NCBI GenBank assembly: GCA_919901555.1
Contig: CAKKPG010000107.1
Span: 14,600-52,079 of the forward strand
DNA from: Nitrospiria bacterium
Lineage (GTDB): Bacteria > Nitrospirota > UBA9217
DNA: 37,480 bases
Reading direction: 5' to 3'
The notes under the pieces are model-generated. The model ran no database searches and had not been told where the DNA came from. It was given only the letters and a program-made list of their open reading frames with translations. The position numbers were made by a program, and so were the translations under genes. Of the stretch, positions 15,735 through 34,475 are shown one piece after another; within the stretch, counting starts at the first letter, position 1, and each line of letters opens with the position of its first letter.

Positions 15735-15758
15735 TTGACGGTTCCTCCTGACCGTCAA
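15735..15758 (-). promoter_or_regulatory. Hairpin with a Shine-Dalgarno-like loop in the DUF3494 gene leader; main content of the 15657-15961 gap
   Basis: TTGACGGT and ACCGTCAA form a perfect 8-bp stem; on the minus strand the 8-base loop is CAGGAGGA. It lies about 80 bases before the ATG at 15656. No start codon follows the looped site at a usable distance, so it may be a decoy or the relic of a leader. A second small palindrome, AGCGTTTAACGCT (minus strand), lies nearer the gene. Nothing else is recognised in the gap. Confidence 0.5.
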
Positions 15759-15961
15759 TGTACAGACTCCTCTATTTTCCACTATGCTTTTGGAGAATCC
15801 CCCCCGCCGGCATAAGGGAGATCAAAAACCAGCGAGGGGCGAGGTTTCCTGGAAACTCTATAAAAAGCGCTCTCATGTCGGCCTTAATTCTTACGAACCC
15901 ATGGTGCTGCCGTCCAGGGTAGCCGCGTTGATCCGCGGCAACGCTCTGTGGTCCGGCGTGG

Positions 15962-16419: not shown

Positions 16420-17205
16420 TTACGGCTGTGTAACCGTAGTCGCATTAAGATTGACCGCGGTCTGCGCCAGCAGCCTGCCGTTGATCGATGCGCCAGCCCC
16501 AAAATTGATCGTTGTCATACTCAGTATAATTCCCTCAAAGTGCGTTCCCGCTTCAATGGTCACACCTTCGGCAACCTGCCAGAAGATGTTCTTGGGCAGT
16601 GCGCCACCGCTTAGGACAACGTTCTTAGCACCGGCCATGGTGAGAGCTTTCGCCACCTTGAAGATCCAGACATCTGTTGAGCTGCCGCTGAGAGTGAGAT
16701 CCGTTGGTATGTAAACAGCGGTCCCCCATTCGTAGACGCCAGGGGCGAGGGTTAAATCGGTAAGCGTTCCGCCGCCCACGTTGGTAGTAGCAGCAGATGT
16801 AGCTGTCCGTCCGGCGGCGTCGGTGTACGCAAGGCCCATGTCGGTTGAGGCCGTGGTCACCTCAGTTGGAGTAGGGGGCGCATAGTCGAATGCGTAGAAC
16901 TTTCCGGATACTTGACCGTCGGTTGAAGTTGCAAATGCAGCCCCTGCGCCTAGGTTCATTGCAAATCCGGTGAAGGCGGTCGAGGTGACTCCTTGGCCGA
17001 GTCCGATATCTCCCGTAATCACCACCCCTGAACTCGTGGCACTGTCGATCCCCGTGTTTGCGAAAATCGCATAGTTGGCGGCCGTTCCAAGGTTCACTGG
17101 GCCTGAACTTCCTCCTCCCCCATTATCATCTCCGCCGCATCCTGTCATAGAAACAGTCAGGAGTAATGCCATAAACCACATCTTGTTATTAAATATCTTA
17201 CGCAT
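16420..17205 (-). CDS. DUF3494 lipoprotein (ice-binding-like/adhesin)
   Basis: 261 aa. A lipoprotein signal ends at SMTGC (Cys23), followed by a Gly/Asp/Ser spacer and a complete DUF3494 domain (about 36-259): LGTAANYAIFANTGI, VITGDIGLG, LTDLTLAPGVYEWGTAVYIP, DVWIFKVAKALTMAGAKNVV, NIFWQVAEGVTIEAGTHFEG and GASINGRLLAQTAVNL. The lipid anchor would hold the beta solenoid at the outer membrane. ATG 17205 has TTAAGGAGG upstream. The leader contains the conserved structured element at 17285-17453, also found before the large DUF3494 lipoprotein. Confidence 0.9.
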   Translation of the reverse strand: MRKIFNNKMWFMALLLTVSMTGCGGDDNGGGGSSGPVNLGTAANYAIFANTGIDSATSSGVVITGDIGLGQGVTSTAFTGFAMNLGAGAAFATSTDGQVSGKFYAFDYAPPTPTEVTTASTDMGLAYTDAAGRTATSAATTNVGGGTLTDLTLAPGVYEWGTAVYIPTDLTLSGSSTDVWIFKVAKALTMAGAKNVVLSGGALPKNIFWQVAEGVTIEAGTHFEGIILSMTTINFGAGASINGRLLAQTAVNLNATTVTQP

Positions 17206-17284
17206 AGGTGTTGCCTCCTTAAGTAAATTTGAAAAGCAATATGCTGCAATCCTTATGACCTTTCACACAAAGTGTATTACACTA

Positions 17285-17453
17285 ATCGTGCCATGGGATA
17301 ACTACGGACACTTCGAGAGCAATGCGTTGATTGTTCAGGATAAGATAGAGAGTGGCGGACAGAGGCGAAGGGGAATCCGTCTAAAGCGGCCGTCATATGC
17401 AACAGAACCGCCAAATATGACGGGCTGCACGGAGAGATTCTTTTGTAAGTCTT
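17285..17453 (-). ncRNA. Candidate structured leader element, copy A (upstream of a DUF3494 gene)
   Basis: About 170 bases are clearly homologous to 21481-21650 although both are non-coding. The centre is a hairpin at 17390-17423 (minus strand CCGTCATAT, 16-base loop, ATATGACGG). The other copy keeps the stem but changes two neighbouring base pairs (A-T,T-A to G-C,C-G). The loop contains the conserved CGGTTCTGTT; further GACGG/GGCGG motifs could pair alternatively with CCGTC. Strand and function are inferred from the downstream gene. Confidence 0.45.
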
Positions 17454-17531
17454 AAGTGAGCATTTATTGGTTCATTCGCAAAAAGGTTGAACGGATACTT
17501 CCGTCAGCGAATTTGGCGGCAAGGAACAGAC

Positions 17532-17566
17532 ACAAAAAAACCCACGGGGGTTTCCCCCCGCGGGTT
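17532..17566 (-). terminator. Rho-independent terminator of the 1103-aa DUF3494/DUF11 lipoprotein gene
   Basis: On the minus strand AACCCGCGGGGG, a short loop, CCCCCGTGGGTT with one mismatch, then a T-run. It lies about 55 bases beyond the stop codon at 17620. Confidence 0.9.
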
Positions 17567-17619
17567 AGCGTTACAGACTGGTGATTCTGCCCGCGGTCAT
17601 CCGCGGCGCAGGACCTCTC

Positions 17620-20600
17620 CTATGGGAGAACGGTCGTGGGTTCGGACTTGGTGGTCGAGTAAGTTATCGTTTTGCTTACTCCTTCCGAAAGCCACTGGTA
17701 GCTCGTGTTGTACAGAGTTCCGCCTGTCGCCGAGCCTGTACCAACCACGTGCACGAGATAGAGCGCCGTGTTTGGTTGCAGGACGACATTCGGGGTCATG
17801 GTGAGTACCTGCAGCCCAGGAGTGCTGTTATTGACCGTGTAGTCGGCGCCCTCTGTCTGAAGTACGGCAGTGGGATTCGACGTATCCGATAGGACCATGC
17901 CCGTAATGGGATCTCGAACCGGCGCGGAGTCGAGATAGACCTTCGTCGAGACTATCGAGAAGTTGCCGGGAGTCGAGACGTTGAACGCTCCAAGATGGCC
18001 GAAACTGTACGTCAGCCTGTTAGTATCCACTCCCTCGTTGGAGAGCGCCTCGACATAGAGCACCGAGAAGTAGGTGACGTTGTTTCCCACCACGACCGGA
18101 TCATTGAGGTCGACAAGCTGGGTCTGGAGCGCCGAGAAGGCCGGGACTGCGACACAATCCGAGGCCTGCTTCGTGACGGCGTTGCTGCTCGTGGCTGTCG
18201 CCGTGTCGCAGTAGGTGCCGCTGACTGCGCCAAGCGGGATGCGGCTCACGACCGTGAAGGTCATGCTCCCACCCGCCGGGATATCGACCGTGTTGGCCGT
18301 GACGACGTTGTTGGCCAGCGTGCCGCCCGCGCCGTTCAAGCTCGAACTCACGTAGATGGCCCGTACGTTGGCATCGGAGTTGAGGCCGAGCAGGTCGCTG
18401 ATGACGACATTTTTGGCAGTGGCCGTGCCGTCATTACCCACGACGATCGTCGAGGTATAGGTGGCGCCCGGAAGAACGCTGTCCGGAGCGTCGGTCTTCG
18501 TGATCGTGAGGTTGGGCGTGGCCACGGTCAGGCAGGCGTCGTCACTGCCGATACCGATGGTCCCGGAAGTGGCCGTGACGGTAGCCGTGTCGCAGTATGT
18601 CCCATCAGCCGAGGCCGCGACCGTAAAGAGCACTGTCGTGGTGGCCCCCGCGGTGAGGTCGCCGATGGTGGTGTCGAAGCCGCCGCTGCTGTTCGGCGTG
18701 CCCGACGAAACGCTGATGAGCTGGTAATTTGCGAGGTCGCCGCTCGTGAGCGCGTCGTTGACTTGGACGCCCGTCGCGGAACCCGTGCCGTTGTTGATCA
18801 CCCGCGCGCGCAGCTTGGCGGGCACATTGGCTGCCACGGTCCGTGCCTTGCCCAGGCTCGTCGTGTTGTCATCGGCAACGAAGTCCTTGACGATCGACAG
18901 ATTCGACTCGAGGGCGGTGAAGCATGCCTGCGCGCCGAGGTCGACCGGGGTCCACGTGTTGGTAGCGTCACTATACGAGAGGATCTTGGCCTCGTTGCAG
19001 TAGGTGCCGGGCGCGGTGACGGTGGCCGTGAAGGTCAGGGTCTCCGTGCTGCCCGGAGCAGCTACGCATGCCAGAGGGGCGTTGATCGCATTCGTGTCCA
19101 GGGTCACCGTGCCGGTGCGGGCCAGCGCCCTGCCCGAGATGCTCGCGCCCGTGACCGCCGTAATGCTCGCCTGCGCGAGGATATTCCCCACGAAGAAGGT
19201 GTTGGTGCCGAGCGTCGCTGAGCTGCCGACCTGCCAGTAGACGTTGCAGGGGCTCGCGCCATTGATCAGGCTGACCGTGGCGCCGGCCGGGGTCGTCAAC
19301 GTGCTGCCGATCTTGAAAACGAACTCCGCAGCGGGGTCGCCCTGCGCGTCGAGGACAACTGGTCCTGTCAACGCAGCCGAAGAAGAGTAGCAATACACGC
19401 CCGGCGTGATCGTGCCCGTGAGGGGTTGGGAGTTATCAGCACCACTGCACGCCCTCGCCCCCAGATCGACGTATGCGGCCGTGAGGGCGGTCTGCGCTGC
19501 CAGCGCTGCCGCGTCGTTATTGTGAATCGTGCCGTTCAGCACGACCCCCGGCGGGAATCCGGTGACCGCCGAGCCTGCGCTGACGCCCACATCGCCGCTC
19601 ACTACGCTTGAGCCGGTGTTCGTCACTGTCGCGTTTGCCAGGACGGCAAAGCTCTGGGCATTACCCAGGAGCTGCGCGGTCTGGGGCGGGGCAGGGGTGA
19701 ACTCAGAAGCGAGCGGGAAGGAGATAGTGAAGCCATCGCCGACCGGGGTGCTGCCTGAAGGAAGTGAGCCGGGCGTGTAGTTCGCCCCGTCGCCCGATGC
19801 CAGGAAGTCGCTGAGGCTGACGGTCGTGGCGTCACCAGTGCCGACATTCTTGATAGTGACGGTCCAGGTGACGGTGCCCGTGCCGCCGACGAGGTTCACG
19901 ACAGCCGAGTCGACGGTCTTGGTGATCTCGAGTTTCGGTGCGGGCGCGAAATTCTTATACAGGATCTGCTTTCCGATCTCTTCCCCGTTGATGGTCGCCA
20001 CGGCCACGATGCGGGCCGCTGCCTTTGTGTCCGGCGAGAAGAGCGTCACCCAGGTGAACCCATCGGCAAAGGGAGTGCCGATCCCGGTCTGATTGTAGAG
20101 CGGGAATTCGCTCGCGATAAGAGGGAAGCGCTCGGCCGCAAGACGGCCGTTATTGGTTCGCGTATCGGCCTGGTCATCGTAGACCCCGTACCCGAGCCCG
20201 ATTCTGTTATCATCGGATGTGCCGAACTGCATGCTGTTGACTCTTCCCCAGTACCACTGGTCGAGTTCCCAGCGGACATCCGCGCCGATCACGGGCCGGA
20301 CAACCCCTGTGGCGTCCATGAAGCCGACATACGCGCCGGCAAGGTTCTGGGTGAAGCTCGGCGCGGACTCCGCCTGCTCGGTGACCAGGGGTTTGCCGGG
20401 ATCACTGACGGTCGTGGAGGTCAACTTGGCGGGGAGGATCCCCAAGGGCTTGTCCTGGAGCCATGCGTAAAAAACGAACTGACCGGACTGCAGGCTGCCG
20501 GAGTCGAGCGGAATGAGGTTCCCCTGACCATCGCGATACACTGCGCGGGGCGCCTCGGAGATGATCTGCGTCGCCTGGAGGGCTAACTGAATGCTTGAGG

Positions 20601-20931
20601 TCTGGCCGACGACGACGTTTATTTCACTGGCCCCATCGATAAACCCAGGCGCGGTCGCCTTCGCCGTGTACTGACCCGGCGCCAAATCGGTGAGAAATTG
20701 GTTGCCGGTGAAGGTCTGCGTGTAACTCTCCGGTCCCGTCACAACCACCTCGGCCGACGCCGGATTGACGGTGACATTGAGGGAACCGGTCGTCGGCGGC
20801 GGGAGTTGATTGACGGTCGTCTCGTCTCCTGCGCACCCGAAAAGCGCCACGGCGCAGACGAGTGCCACGAGAAGCCCCCCGATTCCACGGGAAAGGGGAG
20901 CATAGCGAAGTGTTCGTAAGTATCTTTTCAT
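17620..20931 (-). CDS. 1103-aa multidomain lipoprotein: PEGA-like, DUF11 repeats and an inserted DUF3494 domain
   Basis: Lipobox LFGC (Cys33) follows a long n-region. Residues 48-117 look PEGA-like (GSLNVTVNPASAEVVVTGPE, LAPGQYTAKATAPGF). Residues about 125-325 are an unassigned beta-rich region. A DUF11 domain begins at about 333 (LEITKTVDSAVVN), is interrupted at about 415 by a complete DUF3494 domain (about 418-615: LLGNAQSFAVLANATV, ITPGVYCYSSSAALTGPVVL, FVFKIGSTLTT, NVYWQVGSSATLG, ISGRALARTGTVTL) and resumes at about 626 (PGSTETLTFTATVTAPGTYC). Two uninterrupted DUF11 units follow (about 677-802 and 806-926), then a 170-residue tail. DUF11 repeats form stalks in surface proteins. A surface display or matrix role is inferred. 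ATG 20931 follows GAGGAGG. Confidence 0.88.
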   Translation of the reverse strand: MKRYLRTLRYAPLSRGIGGLLVALVCAVALFGCAGDETTVNQLPPPTTGSLNVTVNPASAEVVVTGPESYTQTFTGNQFLTDLAPGQYTAKATAPGFIDGASEINVVVGQTSSIQLALQATQIISEAPRAVYRDGQGNLIPLDSGSLQSGQFVFYAWLQDKPLGILPAKLTSTTVSDPGKPLVTEQAESAPSFTQNLAGAYVGFMDATGVVRPVIGADVRWELDQWYWGRVNSMQFGTSDDNRIGLGYGVYDDQADTRTNNGRLAAERFPLIASEFPLYNQTGIGTPFADGFTWVTLFSPDTKAAARIVAVATINGEEIGKQILYKNFAPAPKLEITKTVDSAVVNLVGGTGTVTWTVTIKNVGTGDATTVSLSDFLASGDGANYTPGSLPSGSTPVGDGFTISFPLASEFTPAPPQTAQLLGNAQSFAVLANATVTNTGSSVVSGDVGVSAGSAVTGFPPGVVLNGTIHNNDAAALAAQTALTAAYVDLGARACSGADNSQPLTGTITPGVYCYSSSAALTGPVVLDAQGDPAAEFVFKIGSTLTTPAGATVSLINGASPCNVYWQVGSSATLGTNTFFVGNILAQASITAVTGASISGRALARTGTVTLDTNAINAPLACVAAPGSTETLTFTATVTAPGTYCNEAKILSYSDATNTWTPVDLGAQACFTALESNLSIVKDFVADDNTTSLGKARTVAANVPAKLRARVINNGTGSATGVQVNDALTSGDLANYQLISVSSGTPNSSGGFDTTIGDLTAGATTTVLFTVAASADGTYCDTATVTATSGTIGIGSDDACLTVATPNLTITKTDAPDSVLPGATYTSTIVVGNDGTATAKNVVISDLLGLNSDANVRAIYVSSSLNGAGGTLANNVVTANTVDIPAGGSMTFTVVSRIPLGAVSGTYCDTATATSSNAVTKQASDCVAVPAFSALQTQLVDLNDPVVVGNNVTYFSVLYVEALSNEGVDTNRLTYSFGHLGAFNVSTPGNFSIVSTKVYLDSAPVRDPITGMVLSDTSNPTAVLQTEGADYTVNNSTPGLQVLTMTPNVVLQPNTALYLVHVVGTGSATGGTLYNTSYQWLSEGVSKTITYSTTKSEPTTVLP

Positions 20932-20973
20932 TTTTTTGTTCCTCCTCTGGTTGGTATTGGTGCTTCACTTTTT

Positions 20974-21103
20974 CATTTCAGAGCGGTATTCGTGCGTTCA
21001 GCTTTCTGTTCGTTCCTCCTTTCCTGGAAATTTACCGGCATTCCAGCGCGGTGTTCTTTCGTTCATCTTCATGTTCGTTCCTCCTTTTCCGGAGATTCAC
21101 CGG
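20974..21103. repeat. Two tandem 65-bp repeats in the leader of the large lipoprotein gene
   Basis: 20974-21038 and 21039-21103 are the same length and align end to end without gaps, with the start of a third unit after 21103. Each unit carries, on the minus strand, AAAGGAGGAACGAACA. In the outer unit this site precedes an ATG opening a 24-codon frame (starts MKMNERTPRW); in the inner unit the ATG has become AGA. The real start has a third GAGGAGGAACA. These look like duplicated ribosome-binding regions. Confidence 0.8.
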
Positions 21104-21480
21104 CGTTTCAGTGCGCGCCGCCGGGTACGCTTTCGCCCGGGCGAGTACCATGCGTGACGTACGGGGAAAGAAAGAAGGCAAGACCGCTTCCGTCACCGGA
21201 CCCGACTTTTAGATACAGACAACCAACGGGGCAGGGACCCCGTATACGTCAACACTCTCAACACATTATGTTATTTCTCCTGAAGACTTGACATGGCCGC
21301 GCGAATCTTGAAAAATGTGGCATACCTCAATTTTGCAATTTGAAATTTCCAATTTTAAATTTTCAATTGCGGCCAAAGGCCGCGCTATGAAGGGATTTTT
21401 TGGATTTCCGCCGGGGTCTGACTTCAGCCTCCGCAGTGGCGCCCCCGGTAAATGGGGGAACCTGTAAGTATCTTTACAAC

Positions 21481-21650
21481 TATCATGCCGGGGGAAAACT
21501 ATGGTTATTGCGAGGAGTAGCACATTGATTGTTTTGAATTAAGATGGAAAGTGAGCTGCAGAGGTAAAGAGAAAACCGTCAAGGGCGGCCGTCGCATTTA
21601 ACAGAACCGTCAAATGCGACGGCCGTGAAGAGAGAAAATTTTGTAAGTCT
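21481..21650 (-). ncRNA. Candidate structured leader element, copy B
   Basis: Homologous to 17285-17453. The central hairpin (21587-21624) has a perfect 13-bp stem, GGCCGTCGCATTT with AAATGCGACGGCC, around a 12-base loop. It lies about 560 bases before the start of the large DUF3494 lipoprotein, whereas copy A is within about 250 bases of its gene. That distance, and lack of transcription data, leave an independent small RNA or a mobile palindromic element as alternatives to a leader. Confidence 0.45.
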
Positions 21651-21806
21651 TGTGTTGTATTTGATTGGACTTTTTTAAACTACTCAGGACCCGATAAAAA
21701 AGACTATAAAAAAATATTCGCGCAATGGCCATAGACCACACCGAGGCGTCAAAGTCGCAAAGAAAAACAAATCGATTGTTCTTTAAAAAACTTTGCGCGC
21801 TTCTTG

Positions 21807-21911: not shown

Positions 21912-23213
21912 TTACTTGCCGAATTGAATTTCAAGGGTAGCCATAAAAGCGTAAGTGGAATTCCTGCGGCCGCTTGCATCTTTCGGCCAGGTGACTTCGG
22001 GCGCAAGCTCGAAAAAGAGCCAGGGCCGGTAAAAATTCCGTCGATAGAGTGATCCGACCCGATAATTTTGAGTGACCCAATGGGGATGATTCACTCCCCA
22101 TATACTGGTATCATAGGAAATTGCGCTCTTGGGTGACAATTGAGTGAAAAGACTGATCCCGGTATTCCAGGTTACGCCGGGCGTGTCCTCGGTGTAGGTC
22201 ACGTTATTGCCCCACCGGACGAACGTAAACGTGGTGAACTTTCGTTCAAGATCGAGTTGCACGGTGTTCGTGAAATGTTCAATGGTTTGCCACATGGCGA
22301 TTTCGGAAAATCGGAAGAGGTAAACCTCGCCAAAGGGCTTCTTGTACTGATACCGCATCCTGATATGGGCATCGGTATGGATACCGATTTTGATACCGCT
22401 GTCAATACTGACTAATGAACGGAGCCGGGTATACAGATCCGCTCGCGCCCCGATGATGGGTTTTCTGACTCCCGTTTCCCGGTCGACTCCCGGTTGGACG
22501 GGCTGACCGGGCTGGGTAGTGTATTTGTCGGCAGCAGATCCCGACTCGATATATAACTTCCATTTTTTCAGCAATCTTTTCCATTGGGGCAGCCTCCACT
22601 CGAGCTGAAAATCGAGGACATAAGCGACAGTATGCCCCTCGGTCCACCGGGCTGAATTTCTTAATATGATGAAAGTGCCGGGCCGGAGATCCAGCAAAAC
22701 ATGGTCCTTCACAAAGAAGGAATCAAACCATACCGCTGGTTCACAGGTGTTATCCTGCACGAAGCTATGGACCTGGTCCAGCCAATTATCTCCGGCTGTT
22801 CTGACGGTAAAACAGGGGTCTACTTGCGGCCCCAATCGCACCGCGGCTTCGGTTTTTGCCGCTGGTTGATGCGCCTGGTCGGTTTTAGGCTCCTGCTGTG
22901 CTGCAGGTGAAGACGGGTCCTGTTGGGTAGTCGTTTCAGCGCTCACCGGGTCGCTATCCGTCGCAGCCGAATTTGTTCCAGGCTGTCCCGGGGTTTCAGC
23001 GCTCGCGCCATAAAAACCGGCGAAAAGAAGAACGAGGCTGAAAAACAACGTGATCGGGGAATAGCGGGGACGCCTCGCAGCAATAATTATGCGGTCTTTG
23101 GTTCTGATATGCTCCTCCCTTTGGAGCAAACCCGGCAAATGACCATCTCTTGCTGCAATTTGGTCATGATAACCTCTTCTCCTGTGTGGTTCGAAAACCC
23201 CTCGTTGGTCCAA
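21912..23213 (-). CDS. Predicted outer-membrane beta-barrel protein of unknown family; start codon doubtful
   Basis: The signal sequence is RYSPITLFFSLVLLFAGFYGASA, followed by a disordered Thr/Gln/Pro-rich linker (about 75-125) and about 300 residues of alternating aromatic/polar beta strands (VAYVLDFQLEWRLPQWKRLL, IHTDAHIRMRYQYKKPF, STYAFMATLEIQFGK at the C-terminus), consistent with an outer-membrane barrel. No family is recognised. The listed TTG start at 23213 (GGGAGG four bases upstream) leaves about 50 residues before the signal peptide. A strong GGGAGGAG site precedes codon 23108, which is ATC where an ATG would be ideal. A 26-codon frame (23087-23167) overlaps this region in another frame. 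Confidence 0.65.
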   Translation of the reverse strand: MDQRGVFEPHRRRGYHDQIAARDGHLPGLLQREEHIRTKDRIIIAARRPRYSPITLFFSLVLLFAGFYGASAETPGQPGTNSAATDSDPVSAETTTQQDPSSPAAQQEPKTDQAHQPAAKTEAAVRLGPQVDPCFTVRTAGDNWLDQVHSFVQDNTCEPAVWFDSFFVKDHVLLDLRPGTFIILRNSARWTEGHTVAYVLDFQLEWRLPQWKRLLKKWKLYIESGSAADKYTTQPGQPVQPGVDRETGVRKPIIGARADLYTRLRSLVSIDSGIKIGIHTDAHIRMRYQYKKPFGEVYLFRFSEIAMWQTIEHFTNTVQLDLERKFTTFTFVRWGNNVTYTEDTPGVTWNTGISLFTQLSPKSAISYDTSIWGVNHPHWVTQNYRVGSLYRRNFYRPWLFFELAPEVTWPKDASGRRNSTYAFMATLEIQFGK

Positions 23214-25271: not shown

Positions 25272-25328
25272 TTATATTAGTTTTATTATTACTATCACTA
25301 AAATTATCACAACTAAGAGTGCAATCAT
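25272..25328 (-). CDS. Candidate 18-aa hydrophobic peptide
   Basis: AAGGAGG sits six bases before ATG 25328, and the 18-codon frame MIALLVVIILVIVIIKLI ends in TAA. The peptide would form a single membrane helix with one Lys near the end. Very short hydrophobic peptides of this kind include type I toxins and regulators of membrane complexes. No antisense RNA is evident, and no family is recognised. It may also be the relic of a larger membrane gene. Confidence 0.35.
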   Translation of the reverse strand: MIALLVVIILVIVIIKLI

Positions 25329-25367
25329 TTTTTCCTCCTTACCCAAGTATATGTTTGAAAAGACTAA

Positions 25368-25445: not shown

Positions 25446-27164
<1,719 letters not shown>

Positions 27165-27767: not shown

Positions 27768-28826
27768 AAGGGATTATGACAGGAAAATTTCTGTTCCTGA
27801 TATTTCAGAAAATTCCTGACATGTCAGGAATTCATTTCTTCCTTTGAATGCCCAGCTTTTTCATCCTCGAGTGAAGCGTCTTCGGGTTGAGACCGAGGAT
27901 CTCTGCTGCTCCGCCTTTTCCGCTCACGCGCCAGCCCCTGGAGTTCAAGACATCGATGATATGCCGGCTCTCGATCTCTTCGAGCGTGCCGGAGCGCCCG
28001 TTTATTGCCTCAATCGACTTCGGTATCTCGATGCGGAGGACCGGGCCAATGGTCATAATCATCGCCCGCTCGATAACGTTGCGCAGCTCCCGTACATTTC
28101 CAGGCCACCCATAGTTCTGCAGGGTTTCGATGCCTTTCCGGGGTATGGATTCGATCCGTTTCCCCATTCTCGTACCGAGCTCCTGAATAAAGGACCACAC
28201 CAGCGGAAGGATGTCTTCCGTGCGCTCGCGCAGAGGCGGCACGAAGAGCGGAAAGATGTTGAGCCGGTAAAACAGGTCTTCACGGAACCTGCCATCGCGA
28301 ACATATTGGTTCAGATCGCGGTTCGTGGCGGTAATGAGCCGGACGTTTACCTTGATGGTTTTGGGGCTCCCGAGCCTCTCGAACTCACCGTCCTGGAGCA
28401 CCCGGAGCAGCTTGGCCTGCAGCTCCAGCGGCATCTCGCTGATCTCGTCGAGGAACAGAGTGCCGTTGTCAGCCAGTTCGAAGCGGCCCATCTGCCGGGC
28501 AAGGGCGCCGGTGAAGGCGCCCTTCTCGCGGCCGAAGAGCTCGCTCTCGATGAGGGTCGGGGGCAGTGCGGCGCAGTTTATTTTCACCAGGAGACGCCCC
28601 TTGCGCAAGCTCAGGTTATGGATCGCATTGGCCAGCAGCTCTTTCCCTGTGCCTGTCTCACCCTGGATCAGGACCGTGGAATCCGTACCGGCCACCTGCT
28701 CCACCTGTTTCAGCACGCTGCGAATCGCCTCGCTGTTGCCCACGATGTTCTCATGAGTGTGCAGCAGCTTGACCTCATCCAGGAGGTAGCGGTTCTCGGC
28801 TTGAAGCTGTTCCTCGAGCTTCTTAT
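27768..28826. repeat. Segmental duplication, copy 1 (AAA+/HTH half plus 3' flank)
   Basis: This stretch of about 1.06 kb recurs at 30462-31520 with a constant offset of 2694 bases, no indels seen and few substitutions in the coding part; the 3' non-coding flank has diverged more. It covers the AAA+ and HTH regions of two neighbouring sigma-54 activators. Confidence 0.9.
27794..27830. promoter_or_regulatory. Paired palindromic operator candidates beside the 868-aa activator gene
   Basis: Two related dyads, TTCCTGATATTTCAGAA (27794-27810) and the perfect palindrome TTCCTGACATGTCAGGAA (27813-27830), have centres about 20 bases (two helical turns) apart. The same pair recurs in weaker form at 30488-30523. 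Fis-type activators bind such dyads. Since the perfect dyad is followed on the minus strand by TTTT directly after a stop codon, a short terminator hairpin is an alternative reading. Confidence 0.45.
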
Positions 28827-30438
28827 GGGCCTCGAGAATTTGTTTTTCAAGCTTTTTGCGTTCAGTGACATCGCGAATATTACATTGTGCGAGCCTTGCC
28901 CTGTCGACCATATATATTTCCGTGTCGATATATTGCCCGGACTTGGTTTTTATTTGAACATCATCGTAATTAATAATGCCGCTCTTGTTCAAGTTTTGCA
29001 TTATCGTTGGAAAATCACTCATATCGAGCGATACACCGATATCCTGAAGGTTTTTCCCGATGCACTCCTCTTTGGGATATCCCAGCATTTTCTCGGCGGC
29101 CGGATTAACATGGGCTATATTTCCTTCGCGTTTTTCGAGAAGCACTATCCCGTCGCTCGCGGTCTCAAAAATACGCCTGTAGCGCTCTTCAGACTCTGTT
29201 AACAAGTCTTCCAGTCGCTTGCGCTCGGTAATGTCCTCAATGGCCAGGAGGATGATCCGCTCCTTGCCTCTCCCTCGTTCAATTTGCCGGGCATTCAAAA
29301 GCATTATGCGCCTGCCGATGCCGGCAAAATAGTGTTCAACCTCATAGTTATCAAAGGTTGTCTTTTGGGGAAGGATGGTTTCCAGCAGTTCACGCAGCTT
29401 GGGGATATCCCACTGTTTATTGCCCAGGTCATAAATAAGATGCCCCACGGTCTCTTCAGGTTTTACCTTGAAGAATTCATAGAAGGAACGACTGACGGTG
29501 ACCACCCTGAGGTCTTGATCCAAGGAAATCAAGGGTTCGCGCACAGTGTTGATGACGCTCTCGGCAAATTCACTGGCTTCATCTGCGGCTTTTTTAATGA
29601 TCACCAGTTCTTTTCGGGTCTTTTCCAGGCCGGCCTCTATCTCCTTACGCTCGGTGATGTCCTCAATGGCCAGAAGGATGATCCGCTCTTTTCCCAACAC
29701 TCTTTGAATTTGCCGGGCATTTAAAAGCATTATGCGCCTGCCAATGGTAGAAAACTCGTGTTCAACCTCATAGTTATCAAAGGTCGTCTTTTGGGGAAGG
29801 ATGGTTTCCAGCAGTTCACGCAGCTTGGGGATATCCCACTGTTTATTGCCCAGGTCATAGATAAGCTGCCCAACGGTCTCTTTGGGGGTTACCTTAAAGA
29901 CTTCATAGAAGGAACGGCTGGCGGTGACTACCCTTAAATCCTGATCCAGCGCGATTAAGGGTTCACGCACGGTGTTGATGATGCTCTCGGCGTACTCACG
30001 GGCTTCATCTTCGGATATTTTAGTTACTGCCAGTTCTTTACGGGCTTTTTCCAGCCCATTTTCTATCTCCCTACGCTCGGTGATGTCCTCAATGGCCAGG
30101 AGGATTATCGGCAGGTCGTTTTTCTTTTCTCTGATTTTGCAGGCGTTAAGGAGCATGGTTTTCCGTCCGATGCTCTCAAAATTATGTTCAATTTCATAAT
30201 CATCAACGGTTTCGTTCTTCGGAAGAATATCCTCAAGCAGCACGCGAAGTTCCGGGATGTTCCATTGTCCGTTTCCAAGATCGTATAAAAGAGAGCCGAT
30301 AGTATTTACGGTATCTGCTTTGAAAATATTTAAGAAACTACGATTTGCCGACAGAACTCTCATGTTTTCATCCAGTATGAGAATGCCTTCACGAACCGTG
30401 TTAAAAATATTCTTGAAATAGTCTTCCTGGATTAACAT
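27832..30438 (-). CDS. Four-PAS sigma-54-dependent transcriptional activator
   Basis: 868 aa: three near-identical PAS units (about 8-122, 150-264, 292-404) of the IYDLGNxQWDIPxLRxLLE subtype, then a distinct PAS (about 417-527, [20 protein letters not shown]), AAA+ (about 562-800) and Fis-type HTH (about 820-866). Walker A GETGTGKE is at 593-600, GAFTG at 640-644, Walker B LFLDEI at 661-666. The recognition helix is [12 protein letters not shown]. All elements for sigma-54 activation are present, with no receiver. The AAA+/HTH half is nearly identical to that of the gene at 30526. The PAS subtype is shared with the histidine kinase at 1208. ATG 30438 follows GGGGAG. Confidence 0.93.
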
Positions 30439-30461: not shown

Positions 30462-31520
30462 AAGGAATTATGATGGGAAAATGTCTATTCCTGATATTTC
30501 GGAATTATCCTGACATGTCGGGAATTCATTTCTTCCTTTGAATGCCCAGCTTTTTCATCCTCGACTCAAGCGTCTTCGGAATGAGACCGAGGATCTCCGC
30601 TGCTCCGCCTTTTCCGCTCACGCGCCAGCCCGTGGAGTTCAAGACATCGATGATATGCCGGCTCTCGATCTCCTCGAGTGTTCCGGGGTGCCCGTTTTTT
30701 GCCTCAATTGACTTCGGTATCTCGATGCGGAGAACCGGGCCAATGGTCATGATCATCGCCCGCTCGATAACGTTGCGCAGCTCCCGTACATTTCCAGGCC
30801 ACCCATAGTTCTGCAGGGTTTCGATGCCTTTCCGGGGTATGGATTCGATCCGTTTCCCCATTCTCGTACCGAGCTCCTGAATAAAGGACCACACCAGCGG
30901 AAGGATGTCTTCCGTGCGCTCGCGCAGAGGCGGCACGAAGAGCGGAAAGATGTTGAGCCGGTAAAACAGGTCTTCACGGAACCTGCCATCGCGAACATAT
31001 TGGTTCAGATCGCGGTTCGTGGCGGTAATGAGCCGGACGTTTACCTTGATGGTTTTGGGGCTCCCGAGCCTCTCGAACTCACCGTCCTGGAGCACCCGGA
31101 GCAGCTTGGCCTGCAGCTCCAGCGGCATCTCGCTGATCTCGTCGAGGAACAGAGTGCCGTTGTCAGCCAGTTCGAAGCGGCCCATCTGCCGGGCAAGGGC
31201 GCCGGTGAAGGCGCCCTTCTCGCGGCCGAAGAGCTCGCTCTCGATGAGGGTCGGGGGCAGTGCGGCGCAGTTTATTTTCACCAGGAGACGCCCCTTGCGC
31301 AAGCTCAGGTTATGGATCGCATTGGCCAGCAGCTCTTTCCCTGTGCCTGTCTCACCCTGGATCAGGACCGTGGAATCCGTACCGGCCACCTGCTCCACCT
31401 GTTTCAGCACGCTCCGAATCGCCTTGCTGTTGATCACGATGTTCTCATGAGTGTGCGACAGCTTGACCTCTTCCAGGAGGTAGCGGTTCTCGGCTTGAAG
31501 CTGTTCCTCGAGCTTCTTGA
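30462..31520. repeat. Segmental duplication, copy 2
   Basis: Partner of 27768-28826. The match ends abruptly at the coiled-coil linker ([12 protein letters not shown] region), beyond which the two genes have unrelated PAS parts. The near-identity suggests a recent duplication or ongoing gene conversion. Confidence 0.9.
30488..30523. promoter_or_regulatory. Paired palindromic operator candidates between the two activator genes
   Basis: TTCCTGATATTTCGGAA (30488-30504) and TCCTGACATGTCGGGA (30508-30523) reproduce the pair at 27794-27830 with a few changes that weaken the second dyad. They lie 50 to 85 bases before the start codon at 30438 and directly after the stop codon at 30526, so they could serve autoregulation. 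Confidence 0.4.
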
Positions 31521-32172
31521 TCTCAACAAAGGCGTTGCGAAGCGTTTCCTCTGTCTCTTTTTGGGCGGCCACGTCCGTTATGACGATACCGATCCCGCGG
31601 ACCTCATCCAGAGGCAATCTGCGCCCGGACAGAAGCACAGGCAGCAAGGCCCCTTTTTCCTTTTTCAGGGAAAGTTCCGCCTTTCCACTGCCCTGCAGAC
31701 TTTGTTTGATAAATTGGTCGAACGCGGGCAGAAATTCCGGCGGCACGTACCGTTGCAAGGCAGAGCCTATGACCTTTTCAAGAGATATTTCCAGCAGGGA
31801 AGCAAGCGAGTTGTTGCAATAATGAATGACGCCGTCTGCGTTCAGCGTGGCCGCGCCTTCGTTCATTTCTTCCACAAGCACACGGTAGGCATGGTCAACT
31901 CCCTTCAGAGTGAAGACCTGGTCTCCGCCGGGCTGTGAAACAAGCAGCGCATCAACCTCTCCGCCCCTGATGGCGCGCAGCGTTTCCTCGGCTTCTGCAA
32001 GCCGCGCGCGAAGTTCTTCTATTTCAGCACGAAGACCGTGGGATGATTTTCGCCTGCTTTTCGGTTCGTCGTAAGTTTTCGTTTTTACCGTGCCCTGCAC
32101 GGACTTCCCGTTCGGCGTCTTCGGATGCCGGCTTTTCAATTTTGGCTTTGAAGTGTCTGATTTATTGTTCAT
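30526..32172 (-). CDS. PAS-containing sigma-54-dependent activator, second paralogue
   Basis: 548 aa: a basic, low-complexity N-terminus (1-45), a coiled coil (47-70), one PAS (about 95-205, [20 protein letters not shown]), AAA+ (about 242-480) and Fis-type HTH (about 500-546). Walker A GETGTGKE (273-280) and GAFTG (320-324) are intact. The recognition helix reads [12 protein letters not shown] where the sister proteins have LGLNP, the most notable change in an otherwise almost unchanged C-terminal half. ATG 32172 lacks a clear ribosome-binding site. It lies about 190 bases downstream of kaiB, separated by a palindrome, so it is probably not strictly in the kai operon. Confidence 0.92.
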
Positions 32173-32249
32173 CGGGAATGACGGTTACCTATCCAAAGTG
32201 TACGAGAAATTACGTGACAATTCCTTAACCTGGACAAGCCGGAAAACTG

Positions 32250-32363
32250 TTTAGCCACAAAAGTCACAGAAGGCACAGAAGAAAGCGAAAACCAGAACAG
32301 ATTATTAAAAGCTTTCAAGCTCTCCTTTGTGCCTTATGTGCCTTCTGTGGCAAAATTTCTAAA
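32250..32363. repeat. Long palindrome downstream of kaiB
   Basis: Arms of TTTAGCCACAAAAGTCACAG text at 32250-32286 and its inverted counterpart at 32325-32363 surround an AT-rich centre. The right arm overlaps the kaiB stop codon. It belongs to the same architectural class as 345-423 and 2859-2964 and may end the kai transcript. Confidence 0.7.
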
Positions 32364-32730
32364 CGCTCTTTGATGAAGTTTTTGTTTTTCCCGGCCTCAG
32401 ATCCAGGCCCAGGAGGATCTTTTCGGTACTGGTCATATCGCCGATGAATCTCCGCAGGGGGAGAGGTAGTTTTTTGATGAGCGTCGGCGCGGCGATGATC
32501 TGCTCCCCTTCTGCGAGCGTGGGCCGCTGGTAAATATCGATGACCTCAAGGTCGTAACGGCCGTTCAAGTATTCCTCGCATAGTTTCTTTATGTTCGTAA
32601 TTGCACGGAGAGAACGGGGGGTCATACCGGTCACGTAAAGGCGAAGAATATATTTCTTGCCTGCCGCGGCCTTGATTCTCTTTTCGAACCCCTTTGATCT
32701 TACACTCTTTGTTGTATCGGTTTTTTTCAT
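32359..32730 (-). CDS. kaiB: KaiB-family protein
   Basis: 123 aa with a basic N-terminal extension (1-25) and a KaiB thioredoxin-like domain (about 26-112): KKYILRLYVTGMTPRSLRAI, GRYDLEVIDIYQRPTLAEGE, IIAAPTLIKKLPLPLRRFIG and a TSTEKILLGLDL end. In cyanobacteria KaiB switches fold and binds phosphorylated KaiC; in other bacteria the pair acts in stress or timing responses that need not be rhythmic. Its ATG overlaps the kaiC stop by four bases. No kaiA is seen. Confidence 0.92.
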   Translation of the reverse strand: MKKTDTTKSVRSKGFEKRIKAAAGKKYILRLYVTGMTPRSLRAITNIKKLCEEYLNGRYDLEVIDIYQRPTLAEGEQIIAAPTLIKKLPLPLRRFIGDMTSTEKILLGLDLRPGKTKTSSKSV

Positions 32731-34475
32731 TTGGCGGGTCTCCCGCTCCCGGACTTGTTTGCCTTCACTCCGGCGCCATGCTCACGCCTTAGGAACATTT
32801 TTTCGTGGTCTTCCTTGACAACCTGTTTTTTCAACTTCAACTCGCCGAGATTGACGTTTAGTTCTTCCTCTTCCGCTTCGTATTGCGACTGTAAAGCCGC
32901 GACCTGCGCTTCCATTGCTTGTCGTTTACGGTCCAGCTCTCGTTTCTTGCGTTCGATCTCTTCACTGCGCAGGGTTTCTTCCGCCCGTTCCTTTGTCTCC
33001 TGTGCGGCCCGGGCGGATCCGGTCAGCACATTTTCTCCGCCCACATACACGTCGATGAGATCGATGCCTTTGTCGGTCAACAGGAACTCGCGGATCTGGT
33101 TCGAATGCTCCATGCCTCGGGATTTCAAGACATACAGGCCGCGGTTGCGCTCGCCGCCCAGCTCGATATCGCGCAGGGATATCCAGGTGTCCATAAGAGA
33201 TGAAACGGCGAGGTCCGTCTGTTCAAGCGTGTGCTGATGGGAAAGGTTCGTAAAGAATGCGGTGATCTTGTTCAATTTCAGATAATCGATCAAACGGGTC
33301 AGCATGGCCTTTACTTCGTTGGCGCCGGCAACGGCCATAAGGTTCGTTATGGGGTCGAAGAGTACGGCTTGCGGCTTAACAGTCTCGATGAGGCGATGAA
33401 TCCTGGCGAGGTGCATCTCGAGCCCGTACATCGTCGGCCGGGCCGCGTGGAACGTGAGGCGTCCCTGCCTTGTCCACTGCTCGAGCTCGATGCCGATGGA
33501 GCGCATGTTGCGGATGATCTGGTTTTCCGATTCCTCAAAGGCAAGATAAAGGCAGCGCTCCCTTCTCCTGCAAACGGAATCGGCAAAATGGGCGGTCATG
33601 CTTGTCTTTCCCGTCCCCGCCGTGCCCGAGACCAGAATACTGCTGCCCCGAAAGAAGCCTTTTCCTCCCAGCATCGCATCGAGGCGCGGGATGCCCGAGG
33701 AAATTCTCTCAATGCTTGCCGCGTGGCGAAGCGCAACGGACGTGATCGGGAGCACCGAGATGCCGGTATCGTCGATGAGAAAGGGATATTCGTTCGTCCC
33801 GTGGCTCGAGCCGCGGTATTTGACGATGCGCAGGCGACGGGTGGCGACCAGGTTCGTAACGAGGTGATCGAGGGCTATGACGCAATCCGAGACATATTCC
33901 TCGAGGCCGTGCCGCGTCAGGTTGCCGTCGCCCTTTTCAGCGGTGATGACCGCGGTGAGGCCCTTTGCTTTGAGCCAGCGGAACAGCCTGCGCAGCTCGG
34001 CGCGGAGGATGCCCTCGTTCGGCAGCGCGCTGAAAAGCGTCTCGATCGTATCGAGCACGATCCGCTTTGCCCCGATCGAATCGATAAGGCTCTGGAGCCT
34101 GACGAACAGCCCTTCGAGGTCGTATTCTCCGGTCACCTCGATCTCGGAACGTTCGATGTAGACGTGATCGAGAATGAGCTTTTTGCGCGCAACCAGCTCG
34201 TTCAGATCATACCCGAGGGAGGAGAAGTTCTTCGTAAGTTCCCGCGAGTTTTCCTCGAAGGACACGAATATCCCGGGTTCGTTATACTGCCTCGCCCCCT
34301 GCACCAGAAATTCCATGCCGAAGAGCGTCTTGCCGCATCCTGCACCGCCCGCAACCAGCGTCGGCCTTCCCTTCGGCAGTCCGCCGCCCGTAACCTCATC
34401 GAGCCCTTGGATCCCGGTGGGACTTTTCGACAACTGCGATCTCTGATGCCCTCGTTTTATCGTTTTGTCCGTCAA
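32727..34475 (-). CDS. kaiC: KaiC-family double-ATPase with C-terminal coiled coil
   Basis: 582 aa with two RecA-like domains. CI (about 15-245) has Walker A GGAGCGKT (43-50) and catalytic Glu pair E74/E75. CII (about 255-480) has GTAGTGKT (284-291) and E314/E315. The S431/T432 phosphosites of cyanobacterial KaiC align with S425/S426, so both remain phosphorylatable as Ser-Ser. From about 490 a highly charged coiled coil extends to 565, in place of the short KaiA-binding tail; no KaiA site is evident. The TTG start at 34475 has GAGGAGG five bases upstream. It is coupled to kaiB. Partner and output are unknown, though a PAS activator lies next downstream. Confidence 0.94.
   Translation of the reverse strand: MTDKTIKRGHQRSQLSKSPTGIQGLDEVTGGGLPKGRPTLVAGGAGCGKTLFGMEFLVQGARQYNEPGIFVSFEENSRELTKNFSSLGYDLNELVARKKLILDHVYIERSEIEVTGEYDLEGLFVRLQSLIDSIGAKRIVLDTIETLFSALPNEGILRAELRRLFRWLKAKGLTAVITAEKGDGNLTRHGLEEYVSDCVIALDHLVTNLVATRRLRIVKYRGSSHGTNEYPFLIDDTGISVLPITSVALRHAASIERISSGIPRLDAMLGGKGFFRGSSILVSGTAGTGKTSMTAHFADSVCRRRERCLYLAFEESENQIIRNMRSIGIELEQWTRQGRLTFHAARPTMYGLEMHLARIHRLIETVKPQAVLFDPITNLMAVAGANEVKAMLTRLIDYLKLNKITAFFTNLSHQHTLEQTDLAVSSLMDTWISLRDIELGGERNRGLYVLKSRGMEHSNQIREFLLTDKGIDLIDVYVGGENVLTGSARAAQETKERAEETLRSEEIERKKRELDRKRQAMEAQVAALQSQYEAEEEELNVNLGELKLKKQVVKEDHEKMFLRREHGAGVKANKSGSGRPAK

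Follow-up and report, generated by a model that had tools for sequence, protein, structure and literature searches.

The DUF3494 genes and the non-coding copies before them

The window analysed here is a stretch of 37,480 nucleotides from a Nitrospiria bacterium and includes three genes encoding DUF3494 (PF11999) proteins, two of which are preceded by copies of a non-coding element of about 170 bp. The two copies, A (17285-17453) and B (21481-21650), are 73% identical over their full 169-170 bp (E 3e-16 in a search within the genome), lie in no plausible gene and are surrounded by genes that are all on the minus strand (16420-17205, 17620-20931 and 21912-23213), each copy lying upstream of one DUF3494 gene. 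A third copy was not detected by the same nucleotide search of the 3.45-Mb genome. The preliminary description of this DNA had proposed an alignable non-coding pair of about 170 bases, and the alignment indeed holds from end to end with neither copy coding; the intervals given there cover a conserved region, but both stop within a sigma-54 type box which is the most conserved part of both copies (17278-17294 and 21475-21491), and the conserved block runs on to 17278 and 21475. The features of both copies and their predicted target genes are as follows.

16420..17205, minus strand: gene for a DUF3494/Ice_binding protein of 261 aa (PF11999, 5.8e-58), predicted target of copy A
17278..17294, minus strand: sigma-54 -24/-12 box of copy A, ATGGCACGATTAGTGTA, separated by 73 bp from the start codon of 16420-17205; TGGCA..A....TGTA is kept in homologues
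17320..17332, minus strand: IHF-type site of copy A, AATCAACGCATTG, a full match to WATCAANNNNTTR, with predicted IHF binding
17390..17423, minus strand: putative UAS/enhancer of copy A, a side-by-side pair of CYGTY-N6-RACRG dyad operators (the hairpin of the preliminary description)
17441..17453, minus strand: conserved motif upstream of the UAS of copy A, AAGACTTACAAAA
17620..20931, minus strand: gene for a DUF3494 protein with DUF11 repeats, 1103 aa (PF11999, 2.8e-57), predicted target of copy B
21475..21491, minus strand: sigma-54 -24/-12 box of copy B, CCGGCATGATAGTTGTA, about 540 bp before the start codon of 17620-20931
21518..21530, minus strand: IHF-type site of copy B, AATCAATGTGCTA, one mismatch
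21589..21622, minus strand: putative UAS/enhancer of copy B, CCGTCGCATTTGACGG-TT-CTGTTAAATGCGACGG
21639..21651, minus strand: conserved motif upstream of the UAS of copy B, AAGACTTACAAAA

Read on the minus strand, the element is composed of AAGACTTACAAAA, a dyad of the form CCGTC-N6-GACGG-TT-CTGTT-N6-GACGG, a third GACGG half-site, a C/T-rich spacer, AATCAA-N4-TTR and TGGCACGATnnTTGTA, which is of the sigma-54 -24/-12 type, ends with AGTGTA in copy A and begins with CGGCAT in copy B. In copy A, GGCGG stands in the middle of the dyad and TTGCATAT at the right. In both copies the dyad is perfect or near-perfect (CCGTCATAT...ATATGACGG in A, CCGTCGCATTT...AAATGCGACGG in B), and the stem with paired changes from AT to GC between A and B was found as first described. 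The motif AAGACTTACAAAA lies about 20-25 bp upstream of both UAS copies, and similar motifs occur in the homologous copies of genomes G001, G010, G007 and G013.

Homologous copies and their downstream genes

Sixteen copies of the element were found in 11 genomes, of which eight belong to one Nitrospirota family, two are Syntrophaceae and one is a Deltaproteobacterium. Nucleotide searches of the family retrieved copies in G001, G005 (three), G009 and G010, and a pattern joining the IHF core to the -24/-12 box gave nine matches in 14 family genomes and none in the reversed control, all nine being preceded by the UAS and those of G007 and G011 being newly found. A matrix scan yielded further copies, upstream of the DUF3494 genes in G007 and G013 and following an activator gene in G397. 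Among the GTDB species genomes the pattern had 16 matches; the nine without AATCAA at the fixed position were judged to be chance for that reason, and the other seven comprise four known family members (Nitrospirae GWC2_57_13, GWC2_57_9 and DeMMO3_8, and Nitrospiria Hainich-H41-bin277) and three genomes of other lineages (Syntrophaceae UBA4810, Syntrophaceae Zod_Metabat.309 and Deltaproteobacteria RIFOXYD12_FULL_50_9), whose copies (L058, L063 and L065) keep the same module order. A stricter pattern run on 396 genomes of the phylum of the window matched in this family only.

The spacing of the module is conserved as well as its parts. All 13 aligned copies have AATCAA, at 38-40 bp from the -24 box on its upstream side (39-40 bp in copies A and B); it is the invariant portion of the IHF-type site, the TTR portion of which is partly degenerate among copies. 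The distance from UAS to box is 95-99 bp (about 95-98 bp in copies A and B; an apparent 122-123 bp in G007 and G011 reflects the regular expression picking site 1), which places the tandem dyads within the range of about 80-200 bp expected of a sigma-54 enhancer. The box itself resembles [T/C]GGCA..A....TTG[T/C] with constant GG-N10-G[T/C] spacing; in the majority of copies from either lineage its -12 element reads TTGT (or GTGT/ATGT) instead of the canonical TTGC, which occurs in the DUF3494 copies of G007 and G013 and in G397:C65.

Scans with a plain sigma-54 consensus were not above chance in the window (7 matches, 9 expected), and TGGCACN5TTGYW over the genome was uninformative (10 matches, 6 for the reversed control). 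A matrix trained on only the three Syntrophaceae and Deltaproteobacteria copies ranked the two window elements first, with scores of 50.5 and 35.9, the best of 20 shuffled windows under the same matrix reaching 19.1. The informative signal is the conserved, spaced combination and not the sigma-54 consensus alone.

The link to DUF3494 genes first noted in the window extends to the homologues, as nine of the 16 copies precede such a gene (copies A and B of the genome of the window, G000, and those of G001, G005b, G007, G009, G010, G013 and, in the Syntrophaceae, SynZod). The remaining copies mostly precede envelope or signalling genes. Three (G005c, G007, G011) are followed by a hydrophobic micro-ORF of 18 aa and an ABC transporter; copy G005a precedes an OMP beta-barrel gene that is followed by a BON gene, the L058 copy lies about 700 bp upstream of a BON gene, and those of L063 and L095 precede, respectively, the gene for a DUF4382 protein and a PAS histidine kinase gene adjoining activators. 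The window also has an 18-codon ORF with a strong RBS, MIALLVVIILVIVIIKLI (about 25276-25332, minus strand), before ABC transporter genes; its homologues MIGLLVVIILIIVIIKLL (L035) and MIYLLVVIILIIVIIKIL (L050) each have a sigma-54 element on one side and the same transporter on the other.

The presence of several copies per genome in G000 and G005 could suggest a mobile palindromic repeat of the REP/MITE type. This explanation was rejected and has next to no probability, given that only two copies were detected in the 3.45-Mb genome, that these face the downstream gene at a fixed distance from the promoter, and that homology extends over about 170 bp with conservation specific to the modules.

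Each of the two window copies is very probably an enhancer-dependent sigma-54 promoter serving the DUF3494 gene that follows it, and they probably turn on the expression of ice-binding-like surface proteins. Counting against the promoter reading are the prevalence of TTGT at -12, the failure of a plain consensus scan to stand out in the window and the distance of about 540 bp between the promoter of copy B and the annotated start codon. The genome encodes RpoN (E 4.6e-62), and three sigma-54 activators are encoded in the window.

The dyad as folded RNA or as DNA operators

The dyad had been proposed to form a folded and possibly switching RNA, and a cis-regulatory RNA (riboswitch-like, or a leader bound by a protein, in either case with a covarying hairpin and pairings that alternate) would agree with a dyad that is perfect over 9-11 bp, with the paired changes between copies A and B and with further paired changes in the outer arms of copies G005a, G010 and SynZod. 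The covariation asked for as a check was measured on the homologues and did not rise above background, since the values observed for 11 distinct dyads were reached by 36-132 of 500 shuffles, and the left arm is degenerate or lost in copies G009, G005b and RIFOXYD12. Energies do not support a stable RNA hairpin either: only the fold of copy B surpasses most of its shuffles (z -1.6); for copy A, 191 of 200 shuffles fold better. The preliminary description could match the element to no riboswitch, and a search of Rfam agreed, with no family matched at the gathering threshold or at E<=1. In addition, the dyad lies about 95 bp upstream of the conserved -24 box, not between promoter and start codon, and would therefore be absent from a transcript made by the predicted promoter, although read-through from an upstream gene could yield an RNA that contains it. 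Taken on both sides, a regulatory RNA is very improbable.

The dyad is better described as a pair of 16-bp operators, CYGTY-N6-RACRG, forming an enhancer that lies upstream of where transcription is predicted to start. Among the 11 distinct dyads, 76% of cells pair under the long hairpin and 88% under the two short operators, with 96% for site 2 (CTGTTAAATGYGACGG), which is retained in G009 and RIFOXYD12 despite the loss of the left arm. Paired changes may also arise from repeated operators for a dimeric protein, and some symmetry constraint may act on the long dyad as well.

The hairpin before the third DUF3494 gene, which had been grouped with these dyads, turned out to be a different feature, with half-sites in the opposite orientation and no sigma-54/IHF module.

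15735-15758, minus strand: hairpin before the third DUF3494 gene, TTGACGG-TCAGGAGGAA-CCGTCAA, with loop TCAGGAGGAA

Its homologues in G007, G013 and G009 are located about 87-131 nt downstream of a sigma-54 box, that is, in the 5' UTR, and keep the loop GAGG while two stem pairs are changed on both sides, a result not above shuffles. One idea is that it is a CsrA/RsmA-type site with GGA in the loop. Before the same gene there is a GC-rich inverted repeat, CCCCTCGCTGG...CCGGCGGGG (about 15785-15860, minus strand), also present in G001, G010 and G005, which is perhaps the terminator of the upstream unit.

Candidate activators, Kai genes and related regulons

Just upstream of the DUF3494 cluster, the window encodes KaiC, KaiB and three activators of PAS-AAA+-HTH architecture.

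25446..27164, minus strand: candidate activator, PAS - sigma-54 AAA+ - Fis-type HTH (PF00158, 2.6e-70; HTH_8)
27832..30438, minus strand: second PAS sigma-54 activator, with a related HTH
30526..32172, minus strand: third PAS sigma-54 activator
32359..32730, minus strand: KaiB (PF07689, 1e-25)
32727..34475, minus strand: KaiC (PF06745, 4.4e-111; above the cut-off for KaiC PRK09302)

For the enhancer-promoter reading, a PAS-domain activator, most likely the product of 25446-27164, would bind the tandem dyad operators in response to a presumed signal; IHF, if it occupies AATCAA, would bend the DNA so that the activator meets the sigma-54 RNA polymerase at its -24/-12 box; the AAA+ ATPase of the activator would then open the promoter for the predicted transcription. 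This choice of activator is favored by its proximity to the elements: in G005 and G010 the element-carrying contig closes with the C-terminal 33 residues of the orthologue of 25446-27164 (97% and 91%), and in G397:C65 the element directly follows such an activator gene. In G001 a longer fragment of the orthologue occurs on another contig, beside the orthologue of 21912-23213. The HTH is shared by G000, by G001, G005, G007 and G010 at 73-97% identity and by all three distant carriers at 60-68%. The assignment is not tight, because no close HTH match was found in three carriers of the element (G009, G011 and G013) and G006 has the HTH and no detected element (table 8/3/1/5, one-sided Fisher p about 0.04). 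These three carriers, together with the 51-112 candidate activator relatives that the initial search returned in each genome, make it a possibility, though the less favored one, that another genomic sigma-54 activator drives the enhancer-promoter instead of the neighbouring PAS proteins linked to KaiBC.

The closest published parallel is the PrsK/PrsR regulon of the PEP-CTERM system, whose element has a first motif, a 17-mer ending in TTTACA, about 63 bp from the sigma-54 motif and whose PrsR is a response regulator (Haft et al., 2006; PMC1569441). Both elements were found by comparative genomics, are intergenic, precede genes for exported surface proteins and combine an activator motif, a spacer and a sigma-54 -24/-12 box. 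They are alike in logic and different in motif, spacing and activator: the UAS described here is built of tandem CYGTY-N6-RACRG dyads, lies about 95 bp upstream and comes with an IHF-type site. The activators have PAS instead of receiver domains. Membership of the window activators in PrsR (TIGR02915) was rejected (318 bits, cut-off 502.6; motif and distance differ).

The FhlA/NifA-type promoters have the same architecture of UAS, IHF site and -24/-12 box, and the FhlA model is the best NCBIfam match of all three window activators, at scores below half of the FhlA cut-off. The half-site spacing of the FhlA box is similar to that of the element, which offers a lead and no more. The FhlA/NifA UAS consists of TGT/ACA inverted repeats (PMC6615313) with a spacer of 10-12 bp, compared with 8 bp from TGT to ACR in the element, and its targets are hydrogenlyase or nif genes, unlike the DUF3494 and other envelope genes observed here. 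These mostly exported or envelope targets fit the claim made in the title of a paper on sigma-54 as a controller of the bacterial exterior (PMC3162934). The literature search returned no paper containing both DUF3494 and sigma-54, and the conserved sigma-54 enhancer-promoter family is real, apparently undescribed, and belongs to a known kind of regulon.

A proposed orphan RNA motif is in this way replaced by a testable regulon with a named candidate activator, which supplies a control context for ice-binding-like proteins. Its signature (UAS CYGTY-N6-RACRG, IHF-type site and TGGCACGATnnTTGTA) predicts DUF3494 and envelope targets in uncultivated Nitrospirota and Syntrophaceae. Named relatives of these lineages come from groundwater and deep-mine samples, where we take ice binding to be an unlikely role.

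The cluster recurs in other carriers of the element, and its order KaiC, KaiB, activator is seen again in G007, G396 and G397. A link from KaiBC to sigma-54 control is no more than suggestive, and the regulon raises the question of the role of KaiBC outside cyanobacteria. Speculatively, and with rather low probability, a non-cyanobacterial KaiC/KaiB module would signal via the adjacent PAS sigma-54 activators and time or gate the DUF3494 surface proteins, with enhancer, activators and Kai genes either travelling or being retained as a set in different phyla. The literature search found no paper joining KaiC with sigma-54 and a PAS domain, and the Kai link is the part worth pursuing. The arrangement of KaiC and KaiB (often two KaiB) followed by PAS sigma-54 activators (30526-34475 in the window; L095, L096 and L100) is conserved in Nitrospirota, Syntrophaceae and a Deltaproteobacterium.
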